A DNA stretch of 64,000 bases, taken from Saccharopolyspora elongata (GTDB lineage Bacteria > Actinomycetota > Actinomycetes > Mycobacteriales > Pseudonocardiaceae). Location of the stretch: assembly GCF_004348985.1 (NCBI RefSeq), contig NZ_SMKW01000047.1, positions 1 to 64,000 of the forward strand, written 5' to 3'. Shown here piece by piece: positions 1 to 30,520 of the stretch (positions are counted from its first letter, which is position 1; the number at the start of each line of letters is the position of its first letter). The position numbers and the translations under genes are program-made. Under the pieces are notes generated by a model, which was not told the DNA's origin, did no database searches, and saw only the letters and a program-made list of their open reading frames with translations.

Positions 1-94
1 GGTTCGGGTCGTCCGGGCGTCCGGACAACAGTGCGGAGATCAGTCTGCCCACGACGAAGAAGTAGGCCTGGACCTGGTCACGTCGGGATCGCAT
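1..94 (-). CDS. eccB: Type VII secretion protein EccB, N-terminus only
   Basis: The first 31 residues run off the window edge. They begin MRSRRDQVQAYFFVVGRLIS, which matches the conserved cytosolic start of EccB, where an RRDQ-type motif precedes the single transmembrane helix. EccB is a core inner-membrane subunit of the ESX secretion machine. The gene lies 54 bp downstream of eccD on the same strand, so the two are probably co-transcribed. Identification rests on this short segment and the eccD/eccC/mycP context; the rest of the gene is outside the window. Confidence 0.75.
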   Translation of the reverse strand, partial: MRSRRDQVQAYFFVVGRLISALLSGRPDDPN

Positions 95-148
95 GAACGC
101 TCGCCTCAGAACGGTTTCGAATGGAGTGGGGTGCGCCGCCCGCGGCTG

Positions 149-1546
149 CTAACCGGCGAGCCCTCGCACGAGGACGTAGACGTCGAGGACCGCCAGCAGC
201 AGCGGGATCAGCCCCACCGCCGCCACGCCTTCCAGGATGTCGATCGCGCGGCCCCAGTACGGCTTGGGACGCCGCCCGGGCATAGCCCGCACGCTCAGCA
301 GGAGCACGAGCGCCAGCACCAGCGACGCGGGGAACAGCACCGCCAGCCGCAACACCGGGTCCGCGCCGACCAGCAGCCACGCCCAGAAGACCGCGACCCC
401 GTAACCACCGGCGATCAGCACCGGCCACCGCGACCAGGCGCCTTCCAGCGAACGGGCCCGCAGCAGCAACACCCCGGCGGTGACGATGGCCAGCACCGCT
501 TGCCACAGCTGCCACGTGGAGATGACCACGGTGAACAGGACCACCTCGGTCGCGGTGAGGGCGATGCCGAGGGCTACCAGGTACTGCGCCGCCACCGCCG
601 AACGCTCGACCACGGTTTCGTGCGGAACCGGTTCGACGTCCTCGTCCAGTTCGTCGGCGCTGTTGGGCAACGCGGGGAGCGTTAGCCCCGCGAACCGGAA
701 CGACATGGTCGGCACGAAGCTCATGACGACCACGCAGAGCAAAAGCCCGAACGCCGCGGCTTGGTCGGCTCGCCACGACAAGGCGGCGCTCATCAGCAGC
801 ACCACGGTGATCAGCGCACCAGGCAACAGGATCCCCACGAACAGCAGCGCGGCGTCGGAGATGGCGAGCAGCGCGAGGACCGCCAGCAGCATGCCGAGGA
901 CCGCCGCGCACACCAAACCCATTGCCGGTGGCGCCGCGGGGTAGATCGCGACCGGCAGGAACCACCCGGACTGCGCGGCGTAGGCCACGGCCAGGACGCC
1001 GAGGACAGAACCCGTGACGGTTGCGGACTTCGCCCGGGCAAGCGCTCCCCCCGCCGCCAGCAGGCCGACGGCACCCGCTCCGGCGAGCACAGCGGACAAC
1101 AGCGGGTACTCCGCGACGGCGAGCGTTATCCAGCCCAGCACCAGTGCGAACCCCGCGAACGCCAACAACATCCATCGCGTCAACCGGTCGTTCCAGCGGT
1201 CGCGGCGGGCACGCATCTCCGCTGCGATCCCGTCCACGAGGTCGTCGAAATCCATCTCCGGCAAGGCCGCCGACCTCGGTCTGAGGTGGATGGTCTCGCC
1301 GTCGGCGAGCCCGAGTTCGGCGGTCGTCCGGTTCTCGTCCAGCGGGGGCTGTCCGAGGCGTTGCAGCACCCACCCCTCGTGCTCCACCCCCTGGTCGGCC
1401 AGGTCCTGGCCCGCGTGCCGCAGGATCGCCGGCAGCAGGTCCGCCAGCGGAACCTCGGTGGGGACCGCGAGTTCGACCGATCGGGATCCGATCGTCAGCC
1501 GTAGCCGGACGAGTCGGCTTGTGACATCCTTGGCAGTGCCTTTCAT
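149..1546 (-). CDS. eccD: Type VII secretion integral membrane protein EccD
   Basis: 465 residues. The first 90 or so form a ubiquitin-like (YukD-type) cytosolic domain, beginning MKGTAKDVTSRLVRLRLTIG. The remainder is a run of about eleven hydrophobic helices, ending VYVLVRGLAG. This is the standard EccD architecture; EccD forms the membrane channel scaffold of the ESX complex. The frame stays open upstream to 1813, but the extra 89 residues are low-complexity and overlap eccC, so the ATG at 1546 just before the ubiquitin-like fold was chosen. It is divergent from eccC with a 139-bp gap and precedes eccB. Confidence 0.9.
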   Translation of the reverse strand: MKGTAKDVTSRLVRLRLTIGSRSVELAVPTEVPLADLLPAILRHAGQDLADQGVEHEGWVLQRLGQPPLDENRTTAELGLADGETIHLRPRSAALPEMDFDDLVDGIAAEMRARRDRWNDRLTRWMLLAFAGFALVLGWITLAVAEYPLLSAVLAGAGAVGLLAAGGALARAKSATVTGSVLGVLAVAYAAQSGWFLPVAIYPAAPPAMGLVCAAVLGMLLAVLALLAISDAALLFVGILLPGALITVVLLMSAALSWRADQAAAFGLLLCVVVMSFVPTMSFRFAGLTLPALPNSADELDEDVEPVPHETVVERSAVAAQYLVALGIALTATEVVLFTVVISTWQLWQAVLAIVTAGVLLLRARSLEGAWSRWPVLIAGGYGVAVFWAWLLVGADPVLRLAVLFPASLVLALVLLLSVRAMPGRRPKPYWGRAIDILEGVAAVGLIPLLLAVLDVYVLVRGLAG

Positions 1547-1685: not shown

Positions 1686-4600
1686 TTGACCACGACGTTG
1701 TTCAACCGGCCCGCGCGCCGCGTGGGACCGAAGATGCCGGAGGGCGAACTCGCTCTCCAGGAGCCGCCGCCGGTACCGGAGTCGAAGAGCAACAGCCTGA
1801 GCACGGTGCTCACCTACCTGCCCATGGTGCTCATGTCGGGCAGCATGACGATGACGTTCCTGCAACGCCCCGGCCCGATGACCTACGTCGCGGGCGGTGT
1901 CATGGTGATCGCCATGGTGGGCATGGTCGTCAGCCAGCTCATCCGCGCGGCCAGCGAGCGCAAGCACAAGATGGGCGGCGACCGCCGGGACTACCTGCGC
2001 TACCTCTCGCAGCAGCGCCAGAAGGTGCGCCGGTCGCTGGCCGAGCAGCAGGCCGCGGCGGCCTGGACGCACCCGCACCCGGGGTCGCTGTGGTCGCTGG
2101 CGCTGAGCTACCGGCTCTGGGAACGGCGCGGCACCCACGAGGACTTCGGCGAGGTGCGCATCGGCGTCGGACCGCAGCACTCCGCGCTGAAACTGGTGCC
2201 CCCGGAGACCAAACCGGTCGAAGACCTGGAACCGCTGTCGGTGCACGTACTCCGCCGGTTCCTGCGCGCCTACAGCAGCCTGCCCGCCGCGCCGGTGCCG
2301 GTCTACCTGCGCGGGTTGGCGCGTATCCAGCTGCGCGGCCATGCCGAAGCGGCACGCGCGATGACCCGCGCGATGGTCGCCCAGCTCGCCACCTTCCACT
2401 CGCCCGACGACCTGGTGATCGCGGTCTGCGCCGGTGGCCGGGAGCGCCCGGCCTGGGACTGGGTCAAGTGGTTGCCGCACGCCCAGGACGTGCAGCGCCG
2501 CGACGGCGCCGGGCCGGTCCGGCTGATGGCCGACAACGTGACCGAGGCCGAGGATCTGCTGGGCGGGGACTTCACCGAACGGCCGCGCTTCGAGGGCGCC
2601 AGTCCCATCACCGCCCGCGAGCCGCTCGTCGTCGTCGTGCTCGACGGCGTCACCGTCCCCACTGGACATCGGTTCGCCGACGAGGGCTACCGCAACACCG
2701 TGGTCATCGACGTCGGAGACGGGCTTCCCTGGCGGCCCGAACGCGACACCCTGCACCTGGACGTCGCGGAGGACGAGCTGAGCACCGTCACCTTCAACCG
2801 CGCGGGCAAGGAGTCGGCCACCTGGCTCGGCGCCCCCGACGCGCTCGGGGGCGCGGCAGCGGCGGCGCTGGCGCGCGCGCTCTCCCCGTTCCGCATCGGC
2901 ACGGCCACCGACACCAGCGAACCGCTGGCGACCGACTACGAGCTGACCACGTTGCTGGGCATCGGTGACGCGCACGGGTTCGACCGCGACGAGCTGCGAC
3001 AGGGCCGCCCCGCGCGGCAGCGGCTGCGGGTGCGGATCGGCATCGACACCTCCGGTGTCCCGATCGAGCTGGACATCAAGGAGTCCGCCGAGGACGGCAT
3101 GGGCCCGCACGGCATGCTCATCGGCGCCACCGGCTCCGGCAAGAGCGAGCTCCTGCGCACCCTCGTGCTCGGGTTGGCGGTAACGCATTCCTCCGAAGAA
3201 CTCAACTTCGTGCTCGTGGATTTCAAGGGCGGCGCGGCCTTCCTGGGTTTCGACCGGCTGCCGCACACCTCCGCCGTGATCACCAACCTGGTCGACGAGA
3301 TCGAACTCGTCGACCGCATGCAGGACGCCCTGACCGGGGAGATGAACCGCCGGCAGGAACTGCTGCGCTCGGCCGGGAACTACGCGTCGCGGCGCGACTA
3401 CGAGAAGGCTCGCCGAACCGGCGCGCCGCTGGAGCCGATGCCCGCGCTGTTCGTCGTCGTCGACGAGTTCAGCGAAATGCTGGTCACCAAACCGGAATTC
3501 ATCGACGTGTTCGCGATGATCGGCCGCCTCGGCCGCAGCCTCGGCGTCCACCTGCTCCTGGCCTCGCAACGGCTGGACGAGGGCCGCATCAGCAAGGTCG
3601 AGACGCACCTGTCCTACCGCATCGGGCTGCGCACCTTCTCCGCGATGGAAAGCCGCAGCGTCATCGGCGTACCCGACGCCTACGAATTGCCCACCGCGCC
3701 GGGCAACGGCTACCTCCGCTCGGACACCCAGACCCTGACCCGCTTCAAGGCGGCCTACGTCTCCGGCCCCTACCGCGCCCCGCGCAGGCGGGCCGGCCAG
3801 AAGGTCGTCGCGGAGCAGCTGGCCGAATTCACCGGCGAGCACGTGGCCCAGCGCCAGATCGACGTCGAAGAACCCGTCGTGGCACAACCGCAGACCGGCG
3901 AGGAACGGCTGTCCACGATGGACGTGATCCTCGACCGGCTGGCGGGCCACGGCCCGGCGGCGCGCCGGGTGTGGCTACCGCCGCTGCGGGAACCCGCAGC
4001 GCTGGACGACCTGCTGCCCGCTCTGCAGGAGGACCCCGAGCTGGGTCTGCACGCGGTGGACCGGGATCCGGCGCGCACGCTGGTCGTCCCGGTGGGCCTG
4101 GTCGACCTCCCCGCTCAGCAACGCCGCGAGCTGCTCACCGCCGACCTGTCCGGCGCGAAGGGGCACGTGGCGATCGTCGGTGCGCCGCAGAGCGGCAAAT
4201 CCACGCTGCTGCGCACCCTGATCTGCGCCTTCGCACTGACCCACACCTCCACCGAGGTGCAGTTCTACTGCCTGGACTTCGGCGGCGGGTCGCTGGCCGC
4301 GCTGTCCGGCCTGCCGCACGTCGGCAGCGTCGCGAACCGGCTGGACCGGGACCGCATCACCCGCACCGTGCAGGAGATCACCAACCTGCTGCAACGCCGA
4401 GAGCAGCTGTTCGCCTCGCACAACCTCGACTCGATGGCCGCGTACCGGCGGGCTCGCGCCCAGGGCCGGTTCCTCGACGAGGACCCCTACGGCGACGTCT
4501 TCCTGGTCATCGACGGCTGGTACACGCTGCGCAGCGAGTTCGACGACCTGGAGACCCGGTTGCAGGACATCGCCGCGCGCGGGCTCGGCTTCGGCATCCA

Positions 4601-5690
4601 CCTGGTGGTGTGCTCCGCGCGGTGGTCCGACATGCGCCCGTGGCTGCGGGACGTGCTGGGCACGCGGTTCGAGCTGCGCCTCGGCGACCCGGTCGAGTCC
4701 GAGGTCAACGGCAGGCTGGCGGCCACCGTTCCGGCCACGCCCGGCCGGGGCATCACCACGAGCAGGCGGCACTTCCTCGCCGCCCTCCCGCGGATCGACG
4801 GCCGCTCGTCGAGCGAGGACCTCGCCGATGCGGTGGCCGACCTGGTGCAAGCCATCGGCGGCCCCGGCGCGGTGCCCGCGCCCCCGGTTCGAATGCTGCC
4901 GCCGGAGGTCCCGACGCGGCAGCTCCCCGAACTCCGCGTGGCGCACGAGAACGCGGTGTTCCAGGTGCCGCTCGGCCTCGACGACGTCGAGCTCGGGCCG
5001 CTGTGGCACGACTTCGACCAGACCCCGCACCTGGTCGTGTTCGGCGACACCGAGAGCGGCAAGACGAACATGCTCCGCTACCTCGCCGAGGCGGTGACCC
5101 GCCGGTACTCGCCGGAGCAGGCCCGAGTGCTGTTCGCCGACCCCAGGCGGGAGATGCACGACGCGGTGCCCGCCGAGTACCAGATCGGGTACTCGGTGAC
5201 CGCCGAGAGCCTCGCGAAGCAGATCGCGGAGGCGGCGGAGGCGCTGGCCGCGCGGGTGCCCGGCCCGGAGATCGGACCGGACCGGCTGCCGAAGCGCGAC
5301 TGGTGGTCCGGTGGCCGGCTGTTCATCGTCGTCGACGACGCCGAGCTGGTGGAGAGCGGCCTGACCAATCCGCTGCAGCCGCTGATTTCGTTGCTCCCGC
5401 AGGGCCACGACATCGGGTTGCACCTGATCATCGCCCGCAGCACCTCCGGCGGCGGCCGGGCGATGATGGACCCTGTGATGCGCCGGCTGTGGGAGCTCGG
5501 CACACCGGTGCTGCTGTTCTCGTGCCCCAAGGACGAAGGCAGCTTCGTGGGCAACCTGCGGCCCCGGCAGCTTCCGCCCGGACGTGCCCAGTTCGTCAAC
5601 CGCCGACGCGTGGTCCGGCTGGTGCAGACGCCGCTGCTCGACGGTGATCGATCCGGGAACGCTCCGGTGGCGGGCTCGGCGCGGAGCTGA
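1686..5690 (+). CDS. eccC: Type VII secretion ATPase EccC (fused EccCa/EccCb)
   Basis: 1,334 residues. Two transmembrane helices (about 40-85) follow the family opening, then come three FtsK/SpoIIIE-type ATPase domains. Walker A motifs are GATGSGKS (about 480), GAPQSGKS (about 828) and GDTESGKT (about 1115). The first domain has a full Walker B (FVVVDEFSEM); the second reads FLVIDGW and lacks the usual second acidic residue; the third has FIVVDDAE. EccC recognises substrates and powers ESX secretion. The TTG start at 1686 is preferred because the next residues (TTTLFNRPARRVGP) match the family N-terminus and an AAGGG site precedes it. Its TGA stop directly abuts the opposing mycP stop. Confidence 0.95.
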   Translation: MTTTLFNRPARRVGPKMPEGELALQEPPPVPESKSNSLSTVLTYLPMVLMSGSMTMTFLQRPGPMTYVAGGVMVIAMVGMVVSQLIRAASERKHKMGGDRRDYLRYLSQQRQKVRRSLAEQQAAAAWTHPHPGSLWSLALSYRLWERRGTHEDFGEVRIGVGPQHSALKLVPPETKPVEDLEPLSVHVLRRFLRAYSSLPAAPVPVYLRGLARIQLRGHAEAARAMTRAMVAQLATFHSPDDLVIAVCAGGRERPAWDWVKWLPHAQDVQRRDGAGPVRLMADNVTEAEDLLGGDFTERPRFEGASPITAREPLVVVVLDGVTVPTGHRFADEGYRNTVVIDVGDGLPWRPERDTLHLDVAEDELSTVTFNRAGKESATWLGAPDALGGAAAAALARALSPFRIGTATDTSEPLATDYELTTLLGIGDAHGFDRDELRQGRPARQRLRVRIGIDTSGVPIELDIKESAEDGMGPHGMLIGATGSGKSELLRTLVLGLAVTHSSEELNFVLVDFKGGAAFLGFDRLPHTSAVITNLVDEIELVDRMQDALTGEMNRRQELLRSAGNYASRRDYEKARRTGAPLEPMPALFVVVDEFSEMLVTKPEFIDVFAMIGRLGRSLGVHLLLASQRLDEGRISKVETHLSYRIGLRTFSAMESRSVIGVPDAYELPTAPGNGYLRSDTQTLTRFKAAYVSGPYRAPRRRAGQKVVAEQLAEFTGEHVAQRQIDVEEPVVAQPQTGEERLSTMDVILDRLAGHGPAARRVWLPPLREPAALDDLLPALQEDPELGLHAVDRDPARTLVVPVGLVDLPAQQRRELLTADLSGAKGHVAIVGAPQSGKSTLLRTLICAFALTHTSTEVQFYCLDFGGGSLAALSGLPHVGSVANRLDRDRITRTVQEITNLLQRREQLFASHNLDSMAAYRRARAQGRFLDEDPYGDVFLVIDGWYTLRSEFDDLETRLQDIAARGLGFGIHLVVCSARWSDMRPWLRDVLGTRFELRLGDPVESEVNGRLAATVPATPGRGITTSRRHFLAALPRIDGRSSSEDLADAVADLVQAIGGPGAVPAPPVRMLPPEVPTRQLPELRVAHENAVFQVPLGLDDVELGPLWHDFDQTPHLVVFGDTESGKTNMLRYLAEAVTRRYSPEQARVLFADPRREMHDAVPAEYQIGYSVTAESLAKQIAEAAEALAARVPGPEIGPDRLPKRDWWSGGRLFIVVDDAELVESGLTNPLQPLISLLPQGHDIGLHLIIARSTSGGGRAMMDPVMRRLWELGTPVLLFSCPKDEGSFVGNLRPRQLPPGRAQFVNRRRVVRLVQTPLLDGDRSGNAPVAGSARS

Positions 5691-6920
5691 TCAGCGGTGT
5701 TCGGTGGCCCCGTCCGCGACGACGACCTTGCGGGCGGGGCGCCAGCCCCGGCGACGCCCGGCCGGGACGAGCACGGAAATCAGCCACGTGACGACGCCGA
5801 GCACGACCGCCGAGGCGGCGGTGACAACGACGATGCGCCCGGGCGTCGGGTCGGGCGCGGGCGCGACCGGGTGCTCGACCCGTTCGACGGCCCCACCACC
5901 CGGCCGCGCATCGGCACCGCCCGCGGCGACGGCGGCGGTCACCGCCGCGTACGGATTCACCATGCCCCAACCGGTGTCCGGGTCCGGAACGGTTCCTCCC
6001 GACGGATTCGCGGTCGCCAGCAGGCGTTGTGCGACCTGGTCGGCGTTGAGCTCCGGGCGGTACGCGCGGACGAGCGCCGCCGTGGCGGAGACGAAAGGAG
6101 TCGCGTAAGCCGTACCCGAGCCCTGCCAATGCCCCGGCCCGCCGGGGCCGATGCTGACGACGCCCTCGCCGGGCGCGACGAGTTCGACCGACGCACCGGT
6201 CTCCGCATAAGCGCCGGGTTGCCCGGTTTCGTTGACGGCTCCCACCGCGAGCACCCCCTGGTAGGCCGCCGGGTAGGTGACCGAGCCGTCGTCGCCGCCC
6301 TTCGCCGCGGCGGCGACGACCAGCGCGTCGCGGGACCGGGCGTATGCGACCGCGGATTCGAGGTCGGCGCTGGGCTGCGAGGTGGTGGTGGAGACGTTGA
6401 TGACGCGGGCTCCCGAATCCGCCGCGATGCGGATCCCCTTCGCCAGCATGCCGGGATCCCCGTTCCCCTGGCCGTCCAGGACGCGCACCGGCAGGATGCG
6501 CGCCTCCGGCGCGATCCCGGCGAAGCCGATGCCGTGCACCTGCTTGGCGGCGATGATCCCGGCGACGAACGTGCCCTGCCCCGAACAATCGGAGTCGGCC
6601 GCCCCCGAAACGGCCTTGCCCGGCAACACCGAACCGGCCAGCTGGGGCGAGTTGGGGTCGACACCCGAGTCGACGACGGCGACGACGACCCCCTGCCCGC
6701 GCGTGACCTTCCAAACCCGCTGCGGGGCGAGTTGCAACTGCGCCCACGGGATGGCCCCGTCGGTGACGGTCGGCGGCGGGGCGCAGCCCTGGATCGACGA
6801 CCTGTCGGGCGGTCCCGCATTCGGCGCCGCAAGCGCCGGTTGCACCGCACCTCCCGACATCGCGCACGCCAAGCACAACGCGGCGGCGGTGCGAGCGGAA
6901 CGGCTGGCGAAAGCGTTCAT
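5691..6920 (-). CDS. mycP: Mycosin-type subtilase MycP, predicted catalytically inactive
   Basis: 409 residues: signal peptide (about 1-32, ending in an Ala-rich stretch), subtilase domain, proline-rich linker and one C-terminal transmembrane helix (about 360-385), as in mycosins. The Asp motif VAVVDSGVD is intact (D84). The His motif reads GQGTFVAGI, with Gln at 115; the Ser motif reads GSGTAYATP, with Ala at 271; the oxyanion Asn region reads AAAAKGG. The codons are clear (CAG and GCT). In mycobacteria MycP stabilises the ESX membrane complex apart from its protease activity, so a structural role is likely here. The ATG at 6920 has a GGAGTG site; a GTG at 6962 overlaps the upstream stop and is an alternative. 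Confidence 0.9.
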   Translation of the reverse strand: MNAFASRSARTAAALCLACAMSGGAVQPALAAPNAGPPDRSSIQGCAPPPTVTDGAIPWAQLQLAPQRVWKVTRGQGVVVAVVDSGVDPNSPQLAGSVLPGKAVSGAADSDCSGQGTFVAGIIAAKQVHGIGFAGIAPEARILPVRVLDGQGNGDPGMLAKGIRIAADSGARVINVSTTTSQPSADLESAVAYARSRDALVVAAAAKGGDDGSVTYPAAYQGVLAVGAVNETGQPGAYAETGASVELVAPGEGVVSIGPGGPGHWQGSGTAYATPFVSATAALVRAYRPELNADQVAQRLLATANPSGGTVPDPDTGWGMVNPYAAVTAAVAAGGADARPGGGAVERVEHPVAPAPDPTPGRIVVVTAASAVVLGVVTWLISVLVPAGRRRGWRPARKVVVADGATEHR

Positions 6921-6958
6921 CGGTTCACTCCGAAGGAGTTGACGGAATTCTGCGGTGC

Positions 6959-9277
6959 TCACGAGGCCGTCGCGGAAATGGACTGCCCCGCCACGGCACC
7001 TGCCACGAGCCCCACGGGGCTCTGGAAGCGAGACGCCTGCACCTCACCCATCACGGACGGCTCAACGGCACGGCGAAGCCGCAACGCTTCGCGAAGCTTC
7101 TCCGCTACGGCAAGATCGTGGTCGGTCAGCTCGCCGGTACCGCCCTTTTCGTCTGCGGCGAGTTCTCCCAGCAGCACGGCCGGACGAGTGTCTGCGCTGT
7201 CGTCAACGGCCAGCACCTTGAATCGACTGCGCTGGCAGAACACCAGCTCCTCGATCTCCCCAGGGGTAGCGAGGGCCGACGCACGGCGCGCGGTCCTGGA
7301 CCAGATGCCGAAATCGACGGCCAAGTCCGCGGCGACGCACTCGCCCTCGGGCACGGCGCTGAGCAATCCCGGCTCCGACAGCACCTCGCCAAGCGGGTAT
7401 GCATCCCGCACGTCCTGCTGCCACGACCAACTTGCCTGGCGGAAGACCGGCCCGCGCCGCACCGGCAGTCGCCGGAGCCCGGAGGTCAGGCACGCCAGGA
7501 ATTCAGCGCAAGGCAGCACCCGCTCCTCCCTGAGCGCCTCGTTGAGCGCCGCACCGCCACGCGCACCGGCACCGAGGTAGAGGCGCACCGCGACGAGGTC
7601 AACACGCGCGGCGGTCTCGTCGTCGCCCCGCAGCGCCGGTGTGAGCGCGAGTGCTGCGTTCACAACACCCACCGCGTCGTTGAACTCGTCGGCCGCCCAT
7701 GCAAGGAATGCCGCCCGCTCACCCTCGCTGCTCTTATGTCCGCTGGGGACCAGAGGAGGAGCATGCGGAGCTGAGCGGACGCCGGTGAATCGCGCGTCCA
7801 ACCGCGCGGTCGGCGGCTCGGCGCGCTCCGAAGACGGCGAAGCCGATGGTCCGGAACTCAACGTGGCCGGCCGAGACTTCGCCGCGGTCGGGATCACCAC
7901 AGTGGACTCTTCACCGGACTTGGCCTTCGCACGTGGCGATTCCACGGCGACCAGACCACCGCGCACATCGAGCTCCACTCCGGATTCTCTCGCTATGCCG
8001 CGGAGTTGATCACGCAAGCGCTCCTCCTGCACACCCACCGCGAGGAGCCGAGCACAGCCACCGCACCGTTGCGCCAACCAGCCGAGCAGATCCCGCAGCA
8101 GGTCCACCTCCTCAACCGCAGCGGATGGAGTCACCGCGATCGTCATCCGATGCGGCTCGAATGGTCCTCCCACGGGGCCTGCGGTGTCACCGGGGCCCGT
8201 CATGACGAGGCCGGCCGGCACCACGCGAAGTCCAACCCGCTGTCCCGCCGCCGGGCGATAGCCCAGCGCACCATCCGCGACCCACCCGCGGGGAGGTGGT
8301 GCAGCAGCCAGGACTTCAGCGGGCGCTCCGGGTGAATACCGGAGCAGGGTGGGCATCGTGGGCCACGCTCTTCCGCCAGGCACCTCTCGGACGACGACCG
8401 AGCCATCGGCCATCGGGACCCCGGGGGTTACGACGACGCCGCGCCCCAACGACTCGGCAAGCCCCTGCGACCAAGCCGCAACCTGTGTACCTGCTGTGAG
8501 CGGCACGAACCAAGCCACGTCAAGCAATTGAGGTGGCAGCCGGCGCAACCCGGCCACGAGCTGCTCGTGAGGGATTTCGTCCGCCCCGGGCCGTCCCAGC
8601 ACCACGCGCGGTCGGCGCGCGTCCACCGGTACGTCCCACGCGGGATCGCCCGGGCAGGAAGGCCGCGAACGCACGTCCCGCACCAGCAGCCCGGCGGGAA
8701 CGTGTTCGAATACGAGGTCCTTCTCGACCAGAGGAAGACCGGGGAGCATCGCCTCCCAGCTCGGCGGCGGCAGCCGATACCCGAAGGGGGCGCTCCGCGC
8801 GCCTCGGCGGAAGCGGTTCCAACCCGCCGCACCGGCGGCTCCGACCGCGAACGCGGGCCCGGGTGGAATGACAGCGAGCTGACCGGCGGGCGCGATGACC
8901 TCAACGCCGAAGGAGTCCGCCAGCACCTGAGCGCAAACGTTCCCGAACGCGTCGGGACGCCCCGCCCCCGGCATGACCAACCACAGCATCCGATGCGGCA
9001 CGGGGCCGCCGAAGAGCTTCCCGCATGCCTGCCACAAAGCCGTCGTCAGCCCCGGATCGCTGGCAGCAGCACCGGAAACCACCAGTGCAGCGACGCCCGG
9101 GGCCTGTGGCAACGCGTCGAGCACGCCGCTTTCGCGCGTGTCGGCCGCCTCGCCGCGCTGACCGACTAGGCCGATCGATCCCCGCCACCGGAACACCAGG
9201 CGGCCGCCCTCGGTGTTCTCAACCGCATCGCGCGGAACGGCCGCCCATCGTTTCGAAGATGGACCAGGTATTGACAT
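6959..9277 (-). CDS. Large T7SS-linked protein with ADP-ribosyltransferase-like C-terminus
   Basis: 772 residues, upstream of mycP and probably in its transcription unit (stop at 6959, mycP start at 6920 or 6962). No signal peptide or transmembrane helix is seen. The middle (about 470-520) is Ser/Ala/Pro/Lys-rich and looks like a linker. The C-terminal 170 residues carry the order expected of a mono-ADP-ribosyltransferase fold: an Arg-Gly element (LPVRRGPVFR, about 605), a WSRTARRAS strand (about 660), and EIEELVFCQRSRFKVLAV (about 674), resembling the E-x-E...FxV catalytic strand. The family call is inference from motifs. It could be a secreted effector or an accessory factor. The ATG at 9277 has an AGGGG ribosome site. 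Confidence 0.6.
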   Translation of the reverse strand: MSIPGPSSKRWAAVPRDAVENTEGGRLVFRWRGSIGLVGQRGEAADTRESGVLDALPQAPGVAALVVSGAAASDPGLTTALWQACGKLFGGPVPHRMLWLVMPGAGRPDAFGNVCAQVLADSFGVEVIAPAGQLAVIPPGPAFAVGAAGAAGWNRFRRGARSAPFGYRLPPPSWEAMLPGLPLVEKDLVFEHVPAGLLVRDVRSRPSCPGDPAWDVPVDARRPRVVLGRPGADEIPHEQLVAGLRRLPPQLLDVAWFVPLTAGTQVAAWSQGLAESLGRGVVVTPGVPMADGSVVVREVPGGRAWPTMPTLLRYSPGAPAEVLAAAPPPRGWVADGALGYRPAAGQRVGLRVVPAGLVMTGPGDTAGPVGGPFEPHRMTIAVTPSAAVEEVDLLRDLLGWLAQRCGGCARLLAVGVQEERLRDQLRGIARESGVELDVRGGLVAVESPRAKAKSGEESTVVIPTAAKSRPATLSSGPSASPSSERAEPPTARLDARFTGVRSAPHAPPLVPSGHKSSEGERAAFLAWAADEFNDAVGVVNAALALTPALRGDDETAARVDLVAVRLYLGAGARGGAALNEALREERVLPCAEFLACLTSGLRRLPVRRGPVFRQASWSWQQDVRDAYPLGEVLSEPGLLSAVPEGECVAADLAVDFGIWSRTARRASALATPGEIEELVFCQRSRFKVLAVDDSADTRPAVLLGELAADEKGGTGELTDHDLAVAEKLREALRLRRAVEPSVMGEVQASRFQSPVGLVAGAVAGQSISATAS

Positions 9278-9562
9278 GAGCCTCTGTTCCCCTGCAGCAG
9301 CGGGCTCCAGGCCACCCCAACCGCCGGGACGCCTGCCGACATTGTTGGCGGAAGATGCCACCGCGATTCTGGACACCCGCGCCCAGCCGCAACGACTGCC
9401 TGGGCAGACCATTCCCCAAGCCAGGGTTTTTCCTCACCGGCCATCGACAGCACGACCGCGACGATGCCGCGAAAAGGCGGAGTTACTCCTGCCACGGTAC
9501 GAAAAGGCAGGCCGGTTCCAACATTTTGCCCGCCCAGTCCGCTAGAGTCGACGGACCGGCAT

Positions 9563-9832
9563 CTAGTTCGATTCCCTGCCCGGTCTGCAAACTCGGCATC
9601 GCTGATCATCCCGGGTACCTTGCTCGGCTGGCACCACCGATTCATCGCTGCGGGCGATGGCGCGCGTCCAGGCTGCTGCCCGGTCAGGGTCGTTGCCGCT
9701 GCTGCGTGCCAGGGTGTCGACGAAGTCGCGGGCGTCGTCGAGGTCGTCCCGGCTGGCCTTGAGTGCGAGCACAGCGACGTCGTAAGCGGCTTCGCCGTTG
9801 ACGCCGCACGGGTCGATGAACCAGCGAAAGCA
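9563..9832 (-). pseudogene. C-terminal fragment resembling a streptomycin 6-kinase-type phosphotransferase
   Basis: Directly after, and in the same frame as, the stop of the epoxide hydrolase, an open stretch reads WFIDPCGVNGEAAYDVAVLA and continues through a helical segment (ARDFVDTLARSSGNDPDRAA). This resembles the Mg-binding Asp region and C-terminal helices of APH(6)-type kinases (ID-P-G-x-AYDVA). No start codon, nucleotide-binding or HGD catalytic loop is present, so it would be a remnant. Identification is by eye and tentative. Confidence 0.4.
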
Positions 9833-10777
9833 CTAGCTTGGCAACGAATCCAGGAACGACAGCAACGCTTCGTTGACCTCGTCAGGGCGTTCCGCCTGAA
9901 CCCAGTGCCCCGCACCATCGAGGAAGGTGGCTCGACCCATGGCTTCTGCTGCGGTACGGAATCCCGGAAACTGCAGTACGGTGTCCAAGGCTCCACCGAC
10001 GTAGGCAGCCGGCACGGGCAACGCCATATCGTGCCACGCGGCGGTGAGCTCCCAGTTGCGTTGGAACACCCGGTAACCGTGCAGTCCACCGCGAAATCCG
10101 GTGCGCGAGTACGCAGTCGAATAGACGCTGAGATCGGCCTCGGAGAGGAAGTGCATGGGGCCGTCCGGCGCGGGCAGTTCGTCGACGAGAGTGCTCCCCT
10201 CTGGCACCGTCATGGTGAACGGAGCTTGTGGGTTCTGGCCGGAGTTGGCGTAGATGAGGCGGCGCAGGCTTTCGGTGATGTCGCGTTCCAGATCCTGTTC
10301 GGCAACGCCGGGCTTCTGAAAGTAATGCATGTAGAAGCCGTCCGGTACCGTGTCGTCGAACGCATCGAGAACGCTCAGCGGTCCACGCGGAACATAGGGC
10401 ACGGAGAGCCCCATGACGCCGCGCACCCGGTCCGGCCGCATCAGGGCGGCGTGGTAGACCGTCGACGTGCCGGCATCGTGCCCGACCAGCGCGGCCCGGT
10501 CGATGCCCAGAAGGTCCATCAAGCCGATGACATCGCCGACCGTTTGGCATACGTCGTAGTCCTCGATCTTGATGGGTGCGTCGGATTCGCCGTGGCCACG
10601 CATGTCGAGCGCAATGGCGCGATAGCCCGCCTGCGCCAAGGCGTGGAGCTGATGGCGCCAGCTGTACCAGAGTTCGGGAAAGCCGTGGCACAGAACGACT
10701 GCGGGTCCTGCACCTGCCTCGACGTAGTGCAGCTTTATCCGGTTGACGCTGACACGGTGATGCCGCAGGTCGGTCAT
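9833..10777 (-). CDS. Epoxide hydrolase-type alpha/beta hydrolase
   Basis: 314 residues. The oxyanion motif HGFPELWYSW, nucleophile elbow GHDAGT (Asp nucleophile), cap-domain tyrosines (FYMHYF, YRVFQRNW), acidic residue (GGALDTVLQF) and catalytic His (GAGHWVQAERP) all fit soluble epoxide hydrolases, which open epoxides to diols through an alkyl-enzyme ester. A related ring-fission or dehalogenase-like role cannot be excluded. The ATG at 10777 has a GAGGTGAAG site. It lies 65 bp downstream of the nitroreductase gene and probably shares its operator-controlled transcript. Confidence 0.85.
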   Translation of the reverse strand: MTDLRHHRVSVNRIKLHYVEAGAGPAVVLCHGFPELWYSWRHQLHALAQAGYRAIALDMRGHGESDAPIKIEDYDVCQTVGDVIGLMDLLGIDRAALVGHDAGTSTVYHAALMRPDRVRGVMGLSVPYVPRGPLSVLDAFDDTVPDGFYMHYFQKPGVAEQDLERDITESLRRLIYANSGQNPQAPFTMTVPEGSTLVDELPAPDGPMHFLSEADLSVYSTAYSRTGFRGGLHGYRVFQRNWELTAAWHDMALPVPAAYVGGALDTVLQFPGFRTAAEAMGRATFLDGAGHWVQAERPDEVNEALLSFLDSLPS

Positions 10778-29242: not shown

Positions 29243-30520
29243 ATGTCAAAACTGGAGCCTCGTCTGCAGGCGGCAATCGAGCAGAGCCGTTCCCGCGCCG
29301 TGGCGTTGGGACAGTCGGCCGAGCGGGTGAACCAGCACGAGGCGTTCACCGTCACCGTGTTGCACCAAGAGAGTGTGCTCGCCACCGAGGCACCCAACGA
29401 CCGTTTGGGCGGACTGGAGGACCTCAAGCGGCGCGCCGAGGCGAGCGAACAGCCGGTGATCTCGTTGCTGCGGGAAATAGGCGTAGAGGTGCGCACGGTC
29501 CACACCCTGGCCAACGCGGTGACGGCGCGCCTAACCCCACAGCAGATGGAAAGGGTCGCTGAGTTAGACGAAGTAAAGCGCCTGACCCTCGAGGCACCCG
29601 ACCAGGTCACCTGCATGAACGAGAGTCCCCTCACGATCGAGGTGCCGCAAGCCTGGGAGGACTTCGACGCCCAGGGGCGGGGCATCAAGGTCGCGGTCCT
29701 CGACTCGGGAGTCGACGCGAACCACCCGGCGCTCGCCGGCAAGGTTGTGGACAACGTGAGCACCGCCGGGGAGGGCACCGACATCCCCGGCGAACACGGG
29801 ACGCACGTCGCCGGGACGATCGCGAGCAATGACCCCGTGTTCCGCGGGGTGGCCTTCCATAGCGAGATCATCAATATCAAGGTGCTTACCTCGACGGGCT
29901 TCGGCGAACCCCAGTTCGTCATCGATGGCCTCGAGCAGGCGGTGCGGCGCGGGGCACACGTCGCGAACCTCAGCCTCGGATGGAGCGAGCCCTTTCACAG
30001 CTGGGTGTGCGACGACGCCGATTGCATCCTGTGCCGCGCCGCCGACAACGCGTCGAGGCTGGGCGTAACGGTGGTGGTCGCGGCCGGGAACGAAGACAGC
30101 TTTGCTTCGGACGGGCAGTCCAACATTCGACACCCCGGGGCGGCGCGCAACGTCATCACGGTGGGCGCGATCGACAAGGCCAAGATGCTGGCCGACTTCT
30201 CGAGTACGGGTCCCTCGAGCGGCCGGCTCAGTCCTGGATCGGGGATCCGGCTTACCAAACCGGACCTGGCCGCTCCCGGGGTGTCGATCACGTCCGCCAT
30301 CCTGAATGGCACGTTCGCACCCCTGAGCGGCACGTCGATGGCCAGCCCGCACGTGGCCGGAGTCGCAGCTCTGATCAGCGAGGCGGACCCGGCCCTTCTG
30401 CCCAGGATGATCAAGAAGCTGCTCGAGGACACCTCGGAGCCGCTGCCCTTCGGACCGAATCAGGTCGGCTACGGCTCGGTCAACGCCTACGCGGCCCTGT
30501 TGAGGACGCGCATGAAGTAG
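29243..30520 (+). CDS. S8 subtilisin-like serine protease, no signal peptide
   Basis: 425 residues. An I9-like N-terminal domain (about 35-125) precedes a subtilase domain with an intact triad: KVAVLDSGVD (Asp), GEHGTHVAGTIA (His), VVAAGNED (oxyanion Asn) and SGTSMASPHVAG (Ser). A Cys pair (CDDADCILC) lies in a loop. No signal peptide, so it is probably cytosolic or released by a non-Sec route. ATG at 29243 with a GGAGGG site. It probably belongs with the two genes upstream as a three-gene peptidase module. Confidence 0.9.
   Translation: MSKLEPRLQAAIEQSRSRAVALGQSAERVNQHEAFTVTVLHQESVLATEAPNDRLGGLEDLKRRAEASEQPVISLLREIGVEVRTVHTLANAVTARLTPQQMERVAELDEVKRLTLEAPDQVTCMNESPLTIEVPQAWEDFDAQGRGIKVAVLDSGVDANHPALAGKVVDNVSTAGEGTDIPGEHGTHVAGTIASNDPVFRGVAFHSEIINIKVLTSTGFGEPQFVIDGLEQAVRRGAHVANLSLGWSEPFHSWVCDDADCILCRAADNASRLGVTVVVAAGNEDSFASDGQSNIRHPGAARNVITVGAIDKAKMLADFSSTGPSSGRLSPGSGIRLTKPDLAAPGVSITSAILNGTFAPLSGTSMASPHVAGVAALISEADPALLPRMIKKLLEDTSEPLPFGPNQVGYGSVNAYAALLRTRMK

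Follow-up and report, generated by a model that had tools for sequence, protein, structure and literature searches.

Whether a mycosin serves its ESX system as a protease or as a structural part has so far been argued from mycobacterial mutants. According to PMC5082899, MycP1 and MycP5 are required for secretion and for complex stability, with the active-site Ser dispensable; protease-dead mutants of both mycosins still support secretion, and the mycosin stabilises the complex. In the ESX-5 structure, MycP5 forms a cap over the cavity and allows the EccB5 dimers to trimerise (PMC8131196). Our search of the PMC literature, where most subscription papers are absent, yielded no account of mycosins that lack the catalytic triad in nature. 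Here, we analyze such a gene from Saccharopolyspora elongata. We refer to the whole stretch of DNA analyzed, positions 1 to 64,000 of contig NZ_SMKW01000047.1 (64,000 nucleotides), as the window. Judged by their sequences, the window gene and others like it appear to be natural pseudoprotease mycosins.

The window gene, mycP, occupies positions 5691..6920 on the minus strand, with its ATG start codon at 6918-6920 and its stop codon at 5691-5693, and encodes 409 amino acids without interruption. Its product scored 304.1 bits against TIGR03921, the NCBIfam mycosin model, which passes the cutoff of 278.75, and matched the Peptidase_S8 profile (PF00082) at 144.2 bits over the whole length of the model. 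We placed the catalytic columns by alignment to subtilases of solved structure and to active mycosins. Asp84 (codon GAC, 6669..6671, minus strand), read from the DNA and the alignment, is the sole residue of the triad that is retained. The catalytic His is replaced by Gln115 (CAG, 6576..6578), the catalytic Ser by Ala271 (GCT, 6108..6110), and the oxyanion Asn by Lys207 (AAG, 6300..6302), all on the minus strand and all read from the DNA and from alignments with active mycosins. With both reference sets, Q115 aligned under His, A271 aligned under Ser, and K207 fell within the oxyanion-Asn loop. Of the Asp-His-Ser triad and oxyanion Asn that characterize an active S8 peptidase, window mycP has only the Asp. 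We rejected the possibility that the motifs had been misplaced, because the alignments with subtilases and with active mycosins offered no His or Ser at a shifted place within a matching motif. These results match a previous sequence-only reading, which had proposed a retained D84, the same three replacements, and an open frame; that reading also named an alignment with intact His and Ser at other positions as the result that would count against it, and we found no such placement.

The leader of the protein was seen by reading the translation. Mycosins carry an N-terminal extension and two Cys residues that form a disulfide; the window protein has the extension, and Cys46 and Cys112, invariant in a 10-row alignment, would be the pair. 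Near the C terminus, a hydrophobic stretch read by eye (residues 363-385; 5766..5834, minus strand) is a likely membrane helix and is followed by a basic tail, RRRGWRP. A hydrophobic C-terminal stretch was also visible by eye in the other degenerate rows inspected, except in L146, whose row stops short of it.

The window locus, with the order eccD(-), eccC(+), mycP(-), 817-aa gene(-), is ESX-4-like. Mycosin genes lie beside ESX core genes, and here eccC and eccD adjoin while eccB starts at 94-1. The eccD gene (149..1546, minus strand), which encodes an integral membrane ESX component, matched TIGR03920 at 212.7 bits (cutoff 94.95). The eccC gene (1686..5690, plus strand), which encodes the ESX ATPase, matched TIGR03924 at 961.1 bits and TIGR03925 at 846.6 bits, both above cutoff, and three GKS/GKT (Walker A) motifs are readable in its translation. 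The contig begins inside eccB, so that only N-terminal codons are present (1..94, minus strand, from the sequence of window positions 1-160); the likely rest of the gene is the end of contig C206 of the same genome (L196), whose EccB is 92.5% identical to S. shandongensis EccB from residue 35 onward. The eccB/WXG100 side of the window locus falls beyond the contig edge. The corresponding loci of S. shandongensis and S. rosea extend into eccB and two small WXG100-like genes, and an ESX-4-type gene set (eccB, eccC, eccD, mycP, and small WXG100) is present in both. Two WXG100-like proteins were scanned; one scored 47.6 bits, over the NCBIfam cutoff of 44.85, and the other scored 30.6 bits, under it. 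No match to eccE was found among the locus proteins individually scanned.

The gene on the other side of mycP (6959..9412, minus strand, start codon uncertain) encodes a protein of 817 aa with no Pfam or NCBIfam matches. Its C-terminal part is ADP-ribosyltransferase-like: a profile built from five relatives matched, at its C-terminal end, structures of ADP-ribosyltransferases (6dre_B, E value of 1.4e-8; XopAI, 6k93_A, 9.8e-6). Relatives of this gene stand beside mycP at other loci of the window clade. Distant relatives, which are not those covered by the PDB comparison, come after eccB in mycosin-less loci, which raises the possibility that the 817-aa protein is a component or a substrate of ESX. 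Elsewhere in the window, a second subtilase gene (29243-30520, plus strand) has Asp, His, Asn, and Ser intact (hereafter, D-H-N-S) and lies in a 3.9-kb stretch (L009) without an ESX gene.

Orthologues of window mycP occur in S. shandongensis (L046, contig NZ_FNOK01000024.1) and S. rosea (L047, contig NZ_CP102826.1), with 93% and 72% identity, respectively. Gln115 and Ala271 are common to all three species, and the motifs directly flanking these two residues are the same in all three. The Lys207 column is less fixed, with Lys, Gly, or a gap in S. shandongensis, depending on the alignment, and Ala in S. rosea. Given that the same Gln and Ala recur in assemblies of two other species, sequencing error is an unlikely source of these residues.

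We estimated dN/dS by the Nei-Gojobori method on single pairs, which is a crude measure. Between the window and S. shandongensis, dN/dS was 0.227 for mycP, 0.251 for eccC, and 0.249 for eccD; mycP gave 0.245 in the comparison with S. rosea. Other pairs of degenerate mycosins gave values of 0.16 to 0.30, and two active pairs gave 0.24 and 0.39. Because dN/dS for mycP was no higher than for the adjoining eccC and eccD, the gene is not decaying; it is kept under purifying selection, without sign of decay. Open frames in three species and a dN/dS of ~0.23 disfavor its being a pseudogene. The view that the gene encodes an intact pseudoprotease, rather than being a decayed gene, is therefore upheld by the open frame, the profile score above cutoff, the two orthologues, and dN/dS values of 0.23 to 0.25.

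The Gln/Ala mycosin was present in 3 of 22 Saccharopolyspora genomes. An intact counterpart in a like locus, with 54 to 57% identity, was found in two of the 22 (S. subtropica and S. soli). We built a tree of 115 rows by thinning 131 cores at >93% identity with the same catalytic letters, in which the three Gln/Ala mycosins grouped together with full support in the midst of eight intact ones. The clade holding the window group and these eight active mycosins had SH-aLRT support of 98 in the 115-row tree and 89 in a 53-row tree. For the window clade as sister to the active mycosins, some support in the 115-row tree was only moderate (80), and the 53-row tree showed an unresolved fork. A family search of 200 genomes gave 34 matches at an E value of 1e-80 or better, of which 30 were obtained as loci, 27 of them new (rows G172:C18, G098, and G128 were left out of the reading). 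All 27 newly read loci were D-H-N-S. The G005 row of this search is a degenerate mycosin of a different group (L066, DRIG). A Lentzea fragment (L057) retains Ser, has Asp at the place of Asn, and lacks the part that would hold Asp and His; it may be another degenerate mycosin related to the window clade. Conservation of Q115 and A271 in close relatives had been proposed as a check, and its outcome is that both residues are the same in two close species while other relatives read intact. The simplest reading is that the loss in the window clade would have been a single event inside Saccharopolyspora.

Catalytic loss was not confined to this clade. We aligned subtilase cores from loci fetched in 61 genomes belonging to the order and from 13 further loci, reading matches above ~200 bits minus two of G045 (which have internal stops) and one of G055. 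A family of subtilases with lower scores, among them L158 and L163 (D-H-N-S, in a fetched stretch without an ESX gene), was not counted as mycosin. Among the matches listed, there were 147 distinct subtilase cores: 92 D-H-N-S, a number that includes non-mycosin subtilases; 51 degenerate, or 50 given that L043 and L073 are the same gene; and 4 fragment rows (L128, two pieces of L056 from Actinoalloteichus, and L057 from Lentzea). The degenerate kinds, named by their letters at the four positions, were DRVE (9 rows), GRGA (7), GRVG (6), GY(T/A)(A/S) (5), (G/S)L.E (5), DHTA (3), DQ.A (3), DR.G (3), and ten singles. For 48 of the 51 degenerate rows, eccB, eccC, or eccD lay within the fetched stretch.

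Within Saccharopolyspora, 37 of the 66 mycosins in 22 genomes, among the matches listed, lacked at least one of Asp, His, Asn, and Ser, and the other 29 were D-H-N-S. A degenerate copy was found in 17 of the 22 genomes, again among the matches listed; these per-genome counts rest on alignment letters and the loci fetched, with the G005 fragment L128 left out. This commonness of catalytic loss in the genus goes beyond what the sequence-only reading had in view. Degenerate mycosins often fall under the TIGR03921 cutoff, as do all four others of the window genome. We also observed three clustered mycosin-like genes in L144 (G050, 4151-9972), each of them degenerate (DHAD, DTTE, and DRDA). In L056 (9779-11577), the Actinoalloteichus caeruleus mycosin is split over two frames near the Ser motif, with D, H, N, and S all present; a frameshift or a fault in the assembly could account for this split.

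We asked how many separate losses these degenerate rows represent using AU tests on the 53-row tree, a subset of the 115 rows in which 10 degenerate near-copies were skipped and 23 active rows were hand-chosen. The catalytic columns were left out of the tree for these tests, and the groups were picked after inspection of the tree. A single clade of all degenerate rows was rejected (p 0.0026), as was a single clade of the degenerate rows minus the window clade (p 0.004). When group A (here, the AFDA, SSDQ, GQDP, GI.A, and (G/S)L.E kinds) was also removed, one clade was not rejected (p 0.50). Undirected parsimony gave 4 changes; starred branches force 3 on the 115-row tree and only 2 on the 53-row tree, and a FastTree tree of eccC gave much the same groups. 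The two AU rejections imply at least three separate losses if the site was never regained. On these trees, we estimate that the catalytic site was lost at least three times among related ESX mycosins, which is a lower bound on the condition that there was no regain.

To compare what erodes with what is kept, we took the 57 columns whose conservation reached 90% or more across 60 active rows that have ESX genes nearby, and scored them in 40 degenerate rows. The least retained were Asn207, Ser271, His115, Asn175, Thr270, Ser177, and Asp84, a ranking that is partly circular because the degenerate rows are defined by the four catalytic columns; the erosion of Asn175, Ser177, and Thr270 lies outside that definition. 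Twenty columns, including Cys46 and Cys112, were retained in all 40 degenerate rows. The window protein, which represents a younger loss, retains Asn175, Ser177, Thr270, and Asp84. Members of the DHTA kind, in which Asp and His are present and Asn and Ser are lost, look like an intermediate state. These columns bear on the idea that the pseudoprotease does more than scaffold, binding substrates in its empty site as a luminal gate, chaperone, or decoy. The active sites of MycP5 look onto the lumen, the presumed path of the substrates (PMC8131196), and the sameness of the motifs around Q115 and A271 in all three window-clade species favors substrate binding. However, Asn175, Ser177, and Thr270, which are next to the site, erode across the 40 degenerate rows, though not in the window protein itself, and a substitution directed at the substrate pocket of MycP1 and MycP5 left secretion running (PMC5082899). 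Its authors point out that N239 has a part in the oxyanion hole too and that the mutant was not shown to have lost EspB binding. Overall, we consider a substrate-binding role unlikely.

Another possibility is that cleavage for this ESX is supplied in trans, by the intact mycosin of a different system in the cell, perhaps through mixed trimers with the pseudoprotease. All 22 Saccharopolyspora genomes keep at least one intact mycosin, among the matches listed, which leaves room for cleavage of this kind. The sequence-only reading had suggested a search for a second active mycosin, and the window genome has two mycosins with intact letters alongside five degenerate ones, among the matches listed. 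In addition, the authors of PMC5082899 consider mycosin redundancy possible for MycP5. Against this, the introduction of PMC5082899 states that each MycP acts specifically in its own ESX system, and degenerate and intact mycosins never share a fetched locus. When 109 eccC rows were classified by the mycosin at their locus, 57 had an active mycosin, 41 a degenerate one, 11 none, and 0 both. We reject an active partner mycosin at the same locus, since none was present beside a degenerate one in any fetched locus, and we judge cleavage in trans to be slightly less probable still than substrate binding.

Some related loci have no mycosin. Nine loci (L185-L193) in six Saccharopolyspora genomes have the order eccC-eccD-eccB followed by a distant relative of the 817-aa gene, and no mycosin was found within the 17 to 20 kb fetched for each. 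Loci L194 and L199 are not counted among the nine, since their position in the eccC tree assigned them to systems whose mycosin is on another contig. One genome, G014, has six intact eccB genes (on two contigs) and five mycosins, among the matches listed. The eccC of the nine mycosin-less loci is sister to the window eccC clade. We asked which columns conserved with active mycosins persist when the mycosin is dead (here, a threshold of at least 80%) yet have gone from the nine loci (at most 20%), and found 5 of 51 in EccB and 5 of 50 in EccD; the reverse pattern, counted with a laxer loss limit (at most 50%), was seen in 1 column of EccB and 2 columns of EccD. Because the nine loci form one clade, this contrast is only suggestive. 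That mycP is itself decaying toward loss, with the mycosin-less loci as the endpoint of the same road, is highly improbable: such loci exist and their eccC is sister to that of the window clade, but the window frame is open in three species, its dN/dS of ~0.23 sits within the range of other degenerate pairs, beside 0.24 and 0.39 for two active pairs, and degenerate kinds recur between species, as in the 7 rows of GRGA and the 6 of GRVG. The nine loci also suggest that some ESX relatives may need no mycosin, which weakens any claim that the scaffold is indispensable.

Taken together, the window protein is probably a mycosin that no longer cuts and is kept as a cap or scaffold that stabilises EccB, a function proposed by analogy with MycP1 and MycP5. 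The mycP product would be exported and anchored through its C-terminal helix. There it would cap the EccB assembly on the extracytoplasmic side of the ESX-4-like complex to which it belongs. The cap would hold EccB dimers together and let EccC drive secretion. Given its chemistry, a D-Q-K-A site should be incapable of peptide hydrolysis as a serine protease, and, if MycP1 and MycP5 are a guide, substrates of the window ESX would exit uncut by its own mycosin. The structural role that the sequence-only reading had proposed gains indirect support from the MycP1 and MycP5 papers and from the fact that the site was lost repeatedly in proteins otherwise preserved.

More broadly, we favor, guardedly, the view that protease-free ESX is a repeatedly evolved kind of T7SS in actinobacteria. 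Clamping EccB would be the essential and older job of the mycosin, and cutting would be an optional one, dropped at least three times and from the majority of the extra ESX copies that Saccharopolyspora carries. One branch (the nine loci with eccC-eccD-eccB and then an 817-aa relative) would have gone on without a mycosin, having lost EccB positions that systems with a dead mycosin keep. Natural independent losses of the site, together with loci in which no mycosin was found, offer an evolutionary answer to the question of protease or structural part, and soil actinomycetes would allow it to be tested. Should the view be correct, the label "serine protease mycosin" misstates the chemistry of 37 of this one genus's 66 mycosins, among the matches listed, and comparing the active, dead, and absent sets could pinpoint the residues that form the cap.

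Among subtilase-fold pseudoproteases, CspBA and CspC, which act in clostridial germination, keep the fold in a non-catalytic role. They share with window mycP the status of pseudoprotease on a subtilase fold, but the subfamily, host, and process differ, and the match is weak (18.1 bits to NF040809, the CspBA model). The mycobacterial mycosins MycP1 and MycP5 (peptidase family S8) belong to the same profile family as window mycP and keep the same company of eccB, eccC, and eccD. The layout also reads as shared: a leader, an N-terminal extension with Cys residues, a subtilase domain, and a likely C-terminal hydrophobic helix. MycP1 and MycP5 have a full catalytic site, whereas window mycP is without the His, the Ser, and the oxyanion Asn. 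A further likeness is to the laboratory mutants MycP1 S354A and MycP5 S461A, in which the Ser nucleophile is gone, as it is in window mycP, and secretion is supported (PMC5082899 and PMC5156307). Unlike in these mutants, the loss in the window mycosin is natural, is fixed in three species, involves more than one catalytic residue, and recurs in other mycosin lineages.
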